From: Paenibacillus hamazuiensis
GTDB taxonomy: Bacteria; Bacillota; Bacilli; Paenibacillales; NBRC-103111
DNA: 64,000 nucleotides
Direction of reading: 5' to 3'
NCBI RefSeq assembly: GCF_023276405.1
Contig: NZ_JALRMO010000001.1
Coordinates: forward strand, 8,595,501-8,659,500
The notes under the pieces were generated by a model. That model had not been told where the DNA came from. It saw only the letters and a list, made by a program, of their open reading frames with translations, and did not search any database. Below are positions 20,846 to 22,699 of the stretch, one piece after another. A program made the translations under genes and the position numbers. The number at the start of each line of letters is the position of its first letter. Position 1 is the first letter of the stretch.

Positions 20846-20950
20846 ATGATGCTTCGCCGATAAGAGTACAAGGCGGATGGTTGGCATAATAAGCTAATCT
20901 CGGATATAATATAGAGTAATTCACTAAGGAGCGATTTTTTTGTCTGGGGC

Positions 20951-21061
20951 CGTTCTTAACTAAGCCAATTCCATAAAAGAGGTTTTCAAACATACGCCAC
21001 CCGTCTGTCCATTTCGGATGATGCGGGTAGGGTTTGAAAGCTTCGGAATTAGTTAAGAACG
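20951..21061. repeat. 111-bp imperfect inverted-repeat element (long hairpin)
   Basis: The outer arm GTTCTTAACTAA (from 20952) and AATTCC pair with GGAATTAGTTAAGAAC (21045-21060), with a GCC bulge on the left arm. Inner arms continue the pairing: TTTTCAAAC with GTTTGAAA, and CCACCCG with CGGGTAG. The whole region can fold into one long stem. It directly follows a promoter-, RBS- and TTG-like sequence (ATATAAT near 20905, AAGGAG near 20928), so it seems inserted into the head of a former gene. It resembles a MITE or an extragenic palindromic repeat. No coding capacity. Confidence 0.6.
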
Positions 21062-21107
21062 ACGGATATAACCAGATCCTTAGGGATACCTGTTATAATG
21101 AGTTCAC

Positions 21108-21130
21108 ATCCGTGCCGGTTCGGCACGGAT
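21108..21130 (+). repeat. Left copy of 23-bp target duplication (terminator hairpin)
   Basis: ATCCGTGCC, five-base loop, GGCACGGAT. Identical to 22677-22699 on the other side of the insertion element. This copy lacks a T-run because the element starts at the next base. Confidence 0.85.
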
Positions 21131-21143
21131 CAGATTGTTGACA

Positions 21144-21170
21144 AAGCCCCGGTTTTTCGGGGCTTTTGTA
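21144..21170. terminator. Terminator inside the left end of the insertion sequence
   Basis: AAAGCCCCG pairs with CGGGGCTTT over a TTTTT loop, followed by TG on the plus strand; on the minus strand the stem is followed by GTC. It is close to the transposase stop at 21214. Confidence 0.6.
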
Positions 21171-21213
21171 GGATCATTTTTTGAATTTAGCCCTAAAAAT
21201 AGAAGATCGCCTC

Positions 21214-22580
21214 TTATCCGGCCCTCTTAGCCAGGATATTGGCGATCTTTTTAATGTTTTGACATAGTGCAGTCAGTAATGCTTGCTGCTGCACTTTGTT
21301 TCGGCCGCGGAATCGGCAGTAGCGAAGCCCATGGAGCTCTTTGGCATCCGCGAAGCTTCGCTCAATCGTCTGGTATCGTAAGCGGTAGAGATATTTGCCG
21401 GACTTGCTTCTACCGTTTTGTTTTACCCACTCTTTACTATCCTGCCACACATGCCTGGTGATGACTTTTTGGTGATTCCGGGACCGGGTACATTCTTTGA
21501 GCATGGGGCAGTTCGCACAATGATTCGGATCCGACTTATACTGTCTGTAGCCTTCGCGATCCGTTGTCGTATATTTCAATTCGTGTTTTTGTGGACATAT
21601 ATACACATTGTTCTCCGCATCATACTTAAATCGCCACTTAGCCATTAATCCTTTAACTGGGGTAAAGGCTCTACCTCCGATGACCGCGTATATTTTCTTG
21701 TCTTGAAGCTTTTTGCAAATGTGCGACGTGAAGTAACCTGCATCCAGTGCGACGGCTTCTAGTGTTTTTTCGAATTTGAACTTCTTGATGATATGTTCCA
21801 AACGCTCTATGTAAGGGACAGAATCGTGAACGTTGCCGGCAGTGACGTGGACATCCATGATGATGTTGTATTTGTGGTCGACGGTCCGATGATCGAGATA
21901 GAAAAAGCCTTCCGGCTTACCGTCCCGTACCATATAACCGCTCTCCGGATCGGTTGTGCTTACCTTCGTTAGTTTGGTTTCTTCCACCTCCTCTCGTGGC
22001 TTTAAAGCTTTTTTCCATGAGCCTCGCGATCGGCACGAATTGCTTCGTCCAGTTCTTCCATGTAGGCCCTCGTACTCTTGGTTACTTCCTCTTGAACAAA
22101 CTTTCGTTTATTCGCATTGGCCTTGAGATGAGTTGAGTCGGTGATGAGTACCCGACCGGCAACGAGACGATGTTGAATAGCAAGCAGAACGACCCGGTCG
22201 AAGATTTGTTGAAGTACATCGCCTTCTTGAAGACGTTCACGAAAGTAGCTGAGGGTGCTATGATCCGGCACGCGATCCTTGAGCCCAAGCCCCAGAAACC
22301 ATCGATAAGCATTATTAGAGAAAACCTCTCTTTCCAACCGCCGTTCGGAGCGAATGCCGTCAAGATACCCGATCAATAGCATCTTGAAAAGCATGATGGG
22401 ATCTGCCGAGGGACGTCCATTATCCTCGCAGTAATAAGGACGGACTAAGTCGAGAATAAAGGAAAAGTCGATATGCTTATGTACTTTACGAAGAGGATGA
22501 TCCGGATGAACCAGTTCCTCGATACACACCAATTCATATTCATTTTGGACATTCGGATTAGAACGAAGCATAAGATCCAC
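21214..22580 (-). CDS. IS1182-family DDE transposase in two frames (likely -1 frameshift)
   Basis: Frame A (22580 down to stop 22002-22004, 192 residues) has the N-terminal domain ([15 protein letters not shown]) and the first catalytic Asp in [11 protein letters not shown]. Frame B (open from about 22014 to 21214) has the second Asp in A-L-D-A-G-Y-F, a Cys-containing insert ([17 protein letters not shown]) and the Glu in [11 protein letters not shown]. The frames differ by -1 and meet at A-AAA-AAG (22014-22008), a classical slippery heptamer, so a full protein of about 455 residues could be made by frameshifting. A one-base loss in the A-run is the alternative. Confidence 0.85.
22008..22014 (-). 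promoter_or_regulatory. Candidate -1 ribosomal frameshift site
   Basis: On the minus strand the in-frame codons read GGA AAA AAG CTT TAA, which contains the heptamer A-AAA-AAG in zero frame. Slipping one base back opens the frame of the transposase C-terminal part. A small palindrome (GCTTTAAAGC) lies immediately downstream. Confidence 0.55.
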
Positions 22581-22676
22581 CGCCTTAAGAGTATATTTAA
22601 ATTATAACATATTAACGCGGTAATTTGTTAAAGATATTGAACGAAAAAGTAGCCTGTTGGGTTTTTCAACAGGCTG

Positions 22677-22699
22677 ATCCGTGCCGGTTCGGCACGGAT
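22677..22699 (+). repeat. Right copy of 23-bp target duplication, with intact T-run
   Basis: Same hairpin as 21108-21130; here it is followed by TTTTTT, so this copy plus T-run is the original rho-independent terminator into which the element inserted. Confidence 0.85.

Follow-up and report, generated by a model that had tools for sequence, protein, structure and literature searches.

An IS1182-family insertion sequence of Paenibacillus hamazuiensis that sits at a terminator hairpin and duplicates the whole hairpin

The stretch of Paenibacillus hamazuiensis DNA analyzed here (the window, 64,000 nucleotides) carries an insertion sequence of 1546 bp at positions 21131 to 22676, with its transposase encoded on the minus strand and its ends established from the 13 complete, uninterrupted 1546-bp copies in the same genome. 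On either side lies the same 23-bp perfect hairpin, ATCCGTGCCGGTTCGGCACGGAT, which as single-stranded DNA folds with -11.9 kcal/mol (z = -5.7). The left copy (21108 to 21130) is the target-site duplication and has no T-run, whereas the right copy (22677 to 22699, plus strand) is followed by TTTTTT and forms a complete intrinsic terminator. The termini of the element, CAG...CTG at 21131 and 22676, are imperfect inverted repeats, each of which adjoins one hairpin copy directly. The left terminal repeat, CAGATTGTTGACAAAGCC (21131 to 21148, plus strand), is identical throughout the copies of this genome, and the right one, CAGCCTGTTGAAAAACCC on the minus strand (22659 to 22676), emerged from a repeat search and from comparison of the same copies. 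Each end also contains a terminator-like internal hairpin by sequence and folding: ACAAAGCCCCGGTTTTTCGGGGCTTTTGT at 21141 to 21169 (z = -4.7) on the left, and on the right a minus-strand hairpin at 22651 to 22675 that reads into the element upstream of the transposase gene. A prior sequence-only reading of this DNA had described the matching hairpins, the T-run on the right only, and the ends set directly against the duplications, all of which we located as described. The extent that it assigned, 21108 to 22699, fits the element plus both duplications but not the element proper.

The transposase is split between two minus-strand reading frames, identified from the list of open reading frames and from Pfam. 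ORF A (22002 to 22580) encodes a DUF772 domain and ORF B (21214 to 21987) a DDE domain, with the open frame of ORF B reaching upstream to overlap ORF A. A -1 shift at the heptamer A_AAA_AAG (22014 to 22008, minus strand) joins the two into a 452-aa transposase to which both Pfam domains match. This heptamer is probably a programmed frameshift site and not damage, because the GGAAAAAAG motif keeps its position in relatives from Paenibacillaceae, Brevibacillus, and Niallia. The alternative of a broken gene was ruled out by the 12 identical young copies that share the two-frame arrangement, together with the slippery heptamer kept in relatives. Members of the IS1182 family have terminal inverted repeats and a size of about 1.3-2 kb. 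The window element has the transposase type, DDE triad, inverted repeats, and size of this family, and the earlier label of IS1182-like is borne out by the NCBIfam model of the IS1182 transposase (NF033551, E=1e-142, 476 bits against a cut-off of 270). The triad itself (D145, D250, E404) is invariant in 45/45 aligned relatives. A search by sequence for a relative with a solved structure found none. In an AlphaFold2 model of a relative (mean pLDDT 87.8), the nearest structure was the Tn5 transposase (Z 14.2, 273 residues, 4.8 A), and since this predicted fold is Tn5-like, the enzyme is by its modeled fold an ordinary DDE strand transferase.

The element lies at the end of a conserved intergenic region (20917 to 21130, plus strand, start approximate) that is probably transcribed into RNA and whose terminator served as the insertion target, as judged from its conservation and from versions with a single hairpin. 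A promoter-like sequence precedes it at 20881-20910. The region at 20881-21130 is conserved in 38 of 104 genomes of the family Paenibacillaceae, with a second occurrence in the same genome (G000, C1:7202429-7202552), and its features are near-invariant GTTCTTAACTAA/TTAGTTAAGAAC arms, a CGGATAT motif, and the terminator. No Rfam family matched 20881-21130 above the gathering threshold, and the region is possibly an undescribed noncoding RNA, a candidate judged by sequence. Two Rfam matches at the left end, RsmY and rimP, score below gathering and span the insertion junction, and they were dismissed as chance. A variant of the region at three loci (L279, L282, and L286) stops just upstream of AGGAGG, which resembles a ribosome-binding site.

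Sites without the element establish what the hairpin is. Orthologues of the window site in three genomes (G009, G058, and G060) have a single terminator hairpin, and the alignment to the G009 orthologue (69% identity) spans the insertion point. When the flanks of other copies were joined with one hairpin and used as queries, a site on an IncC plasmid and one on a B. subtilis plasmid were found uninterrupted in other plasmids at 100% identity, and an Acinetobacter site was found uninterrupted on a plasmid at 96.7% identity. Since these uninterrupted sites hold one hairpin, the hairpin is target DNA that was duplicated by insertion, as the sequence-only reading had proposed for the terminator in the window.

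The genome contains 15 complete copies of the element at 15 different hairpins, unrelated to one another in sequence, and each hairpin is duplicated on both sides, which excludes a chance origin of the flanking hairpins. Thirteen of these copies are uninterrupted; 12 of the 13 share one sequence, from which the window copy departs at 16 bases. The window element is a young, multi-copy member of the IS1182 family, and a search at megablast level gave no match to it in phages. The duplications measure 23, 22, 13, 26, 26, 38, 21, and 26 bp in the first eight copies and 16 (one mismatch), 45, 27, 26, 21, 29 (one mismatch), and 27 bp in the remaining seven. An expectation that all copies would lie in hairpins with duplications of 20-25 bp therefore stands for the hairpins (15/15) but not for the lengths, which range from 13 to 45 bp and follow the size of the hairpin. 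Most of the copies sit just downstream of long open reading frames, and the suggestion that hairpin targeting serves to avoid gene damage is plausible, although any such avoidance is not absolute because one copy (L003) lies inside a 971-aa reading frame, at a hairpin within the gene. In this copy the 13-bp duplication, ACCGTTAACCGGT, forms the core of a longer hairpin, GGCATT-G-ACCGTTAACCGGT-G-AATGCC, and the flanks reveal that the cut fell exactly at the G.G mismatch. Another copy (L014) shares 9 of the 16 differences of the window copy, and because these fall in two blocks, their sequence suggests gene conversion between copies.

A wider survey tabulated 53 copies, made up of these 15 and 38 others from multi-copy relatives across the class, with entry restricted to copies that showed a duplication no shorter than 7 bp; beside them stand L163, L177, L181, L188, L194, and L200, with ends that could not be resolved. 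All but one of the tabulated duplications (52/53) fold as hairpins, in 20 distinct lengths. The exception, L168, has an 8-bp duplication that is not a hairpin, TATATCAT, and is the only such copy tabulated in the whole-hairpin clade. The ends of the duplication are symmetric by base pairing in 46/53 copies. Among the seven that are not exactly symmetric is L168, and symmetry in L009 requires one substitution or two extra bases. Symmetry by pairing also holds in the bulged hairpins of L005, L007, and L010, where symmetry by distance fails, and a cut at fixed distance therefore cannot yield these cases. At least five T in the eight bases beside the hairpin were found at 43/53 sites, against a background of 9.6%. 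At the edges of the duplication the first base is A in 40/53 and the last is T in 44/53, and the target sites share no further sequence. Because the table is biased toward copies with duplications, we also took 14 loci from a plasmid collection by transposase similarity alone. They came from the Bacillota (Brevibacillus, Alkalihalophilus with ISBspe1, B. subtilis, and B. pumilus) and from the Alpha- and Gammaproteobacteria (five Rhizobium strains, Sphingobium, Aminobacter, Klebsiella with the IncC plasmid, Acinetobacter, and Salinivibrio). In all 14, the whole hairpin is duplicated. A search of E. coli genomes for a close match of a proteobacterial relative found none. The proposal of target choice for stem-loops thus holds in a search that looked for non-palindromic sites in both sets. 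Five copies (L097, L099, L165, L166, and L193) have discordant flanks and yet a complete hairpin at each end; since the right hairpin of L097 is the left hairpin of L099, recombination between copies probably swapped the flanks.

These elements insert at hairpin feet, and hairpins of any length end up duplicated in full on either side. We consider it probable that terminator hairpins are targeted by structure and not by sequence, through attack on a cruciform followed by gap repair. The target would be presented as an extruded pair of hairpins, whose four-way junction would bring the two points of attack together. The Tn5-like DDE transposase would then join each 3' end of the element to one strand, at the 5' foot of the hairpin there, so that the stagger would match the hairpin in length and gap filling would copy it. 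A folded target accounts better than any linear model for the varying stagger, for symmetry by pairing where hairpins are bulged, and for the position of the cut in L003 at the mismatch. Transcription termination would probably be left intact by insertion, since a hairpin remains on each side and both ends of the element contain terminator-like hairpins of their own.

The alternative with the most weight retains the folded target and dispenses with the double-stranded cruciform. Extrusion from relaxed DNA is poor for short terminator hairpins, and hairpins form more easily on single-stranded DNA than cruciforms do. The transposase might attack hairpins folded on the lagging-strand template or in a transcription bubble. 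This route could give the same outcome in sequence. In the copies of this genome, inspected by eye, orientation to the T-run showed no strong bias toward either strand, an observation that is neutral for this route. Joining to the 5' foot on opposite strands would, however, require both strands to be folded, together or sequentially, which a cruciform would supply directly, and we regard the single-stranded route as rather unlikely. Models in which the fold has no part fare much worse. An enzyme of fixed stagger with a sequence preference for terminators might only appear to duplicate hairpins if selection retained insertions at harmless sites; terminators are harmless landing places, and A and T are common at the duplication edges. 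Selection cannot, however, alter the length of a duplication, and the lengths of 13-45 bp track those of the hairpins, which rules out this very improbable model; beyond the A/T edges there is also no common target sequence.

The two remaining alternatives concern the origin of the hairpin copies. IS1272, which also belongs to the IS1182 family, acts by hairpin replacement (PMC4923244, PMC5678879), and the window element might have done so too if recombination later restored the hairpins. The same repair would then have had to occur independently at dozens of sites, twelve of which adjoin identical young copies, and these recent copies with perfect duplications rule out so remote a scenario in practice. 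Least probable of all is that the hairpin forms the outer end of the element itself. It does adjoin the termini on both sides in the window, but its sequence differs in every copy, and the empty sites carry one hairpin without the element, which answers in the negative the earlier question of whether it belongs to the element in all copies.

Within the IS1182 family, the clades of the transposase correspond almost without exception to three outcomes: duplication of the whole hairpin, of the loop only, or of nothing. The elements without duplication have long transposases, GAGGCTG-like ends, and neither a duplication nor a flanking hairpin, in line with what is published for IS1272 (PMC4923244, PMC5678879), and proteins like those of ISSep1/ISSau3 are 85% identical to one of them. 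Empty sites for two such elements, the ISSau3-like L289 and L290 of L. plantarum, were sought and not found; the literature and the absence of duplications here point to hairpin deletion in this clade. The loop set targets terminator hairpins with near-fixed duplications of 5-9 bp and has ends GAGGCCACTGAAAAAG or GAGAGCACTGCAAAAC, and in 14/18 copies with a duplication, its position is the loop of a clear hairpin formed locally. On a maximum-likelihood tree, which does not contain IS1272 itself, the set without duplication forms one clade (100/100) with the window element outside, and the loop set falls into a clade of its own (100/100) and a G054/G496 pair (100/99) that is nested within the whole-hairpin elements. 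The three labels require 3 changes on the tree compared with 15.3 in shuffles; long branches join some of the groups, so the deep branching order is unsure, and L087, L088, and two G496 copies have no certain mode. Three IS1182-type copies of G496 (L197-L199) lie in apparent repeated palindromes (ACTAGCTGTA...), with the mode clear in one copy only. Whole-hairpin enzymes have a spacing of about 105 residues between their first two catalytic aspartates (105 in the window element), most loop enzymes one of 138-146, and enzymes without duplication one of 166-179. Spacing is not the sole determinant of outcome, because the nested loop-type G054 also has 105. On balance we lean toward IS1182 as a single transposase scaffold that has evolved different outcomes on a common structured target, in which attack at the 5' feet would give whole-hairpin duplication, attack at the loop would give loop duplication, and attack at the 3' feet would give deletion. 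The stagger would come from the structure of the target, whereas the outcome would depend on the clade and might be governed by the segment that separates the first two aspartates.

IS1272/TnSha1 resembles the window element in transposase family, in hairpin targets without a sequence consensus, many of them terminators, and in frequent insertion just downstream of genes. IS1272 removes the hairpin without duplication (PMC4923244, PMC5678879), however, whereas the window element duplicates it in 15/15 copies of its own genome, and the IS1272-type clade of long transposases (100/100) excludes the window element and has an aspartate spacing of 166-179 against 105, with IS1272 itself outside the tree. 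Pathways a, b, and c in Figure 13 of Wan 2017 depict the three outcomes, with only a documented; whole-hairpin duplication was the hypothetical pathway b, and loop-only duplication was likewise hypothetical (PMC5678879). A review cited there is quoted as stating, without data, that some IS1182 members target palindromes (PMC5678879). Our literature search found no report of whole-hairpin duplication at scale or of a map of outcomes onto clades. Hairpin targeting in IS1182 had thus been noted earlier, and large-scale hairpin duplication and the clade map are apparently new. For the IS1182 family, ISfinder reportedly gives very variable duplications. ISBspe1, an IS1182 member on Alkalihalophilus plasmid pBpOF4-01, has a transposase 60% identical to that of the window element and a 20-bp hairpin duplication with a T-run, in another host and with another sequence, and a literature search found no published account of its target mode. 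The loop-duplicating members share the family and the target kind but differ in their 5-9 bp loop duplications and their spacing of 138-146 versus about 105. ISPpu9 and other REP-targeting elements also insert at extragenic palindromes (PMC8450116), although their targets, as that source describes them, are repetitive REP sequences, whereas the target hairpins of the window element all differ in sequence.

Textbook accounts give the target duplications of DDE transposons a fixed length that depends on how far apart the two active sites stand. In the elements described here it is the fold of the target itself that sets the length, 13-45 bp, which makes them natural reporters of open hairpins or cruciforms in living cells. 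They may also be a starting point for tools that place DNA at the ends of genes and do little harm there. With the clade map, the hypothesis that Wan 2017 drew as pathways a, b, and c becomes a comparison that can be tested on related enzymes.

Bacterial class C group II introns also insert at intrinsic terminators, through RNA-based retrohoming downstream of the hairpin and, unlike the window element, without hairpin duplication. Two other copies of the element, L123 (G000:C1:2603000-2609500) and L124/L125 (a contig junction), carry a group II intron with a reverse transcriptase at nucleotide 1517, adjoining the element's own right-end hairpin, the equivalent of 22651 to 22675 in the window. 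Rfam places its ribozyme core above gathering (RF02001 and RF00029), the reverse transcriptase matches TIGR04416 (E=1.8e-128), and the position beside terminator hairpins fits a class C intron. The two introns are identical, the element lineages that carry them are different, and both composite copies retain hairpin duplications, of 29 and 27 bp. In the left flank of a further copy (L012, G000:C1 about 813474), the same intron has its 5' end directly against the T-run of the terminator that the element duplicated, and the two kinds of element therefore share the terminator niche.
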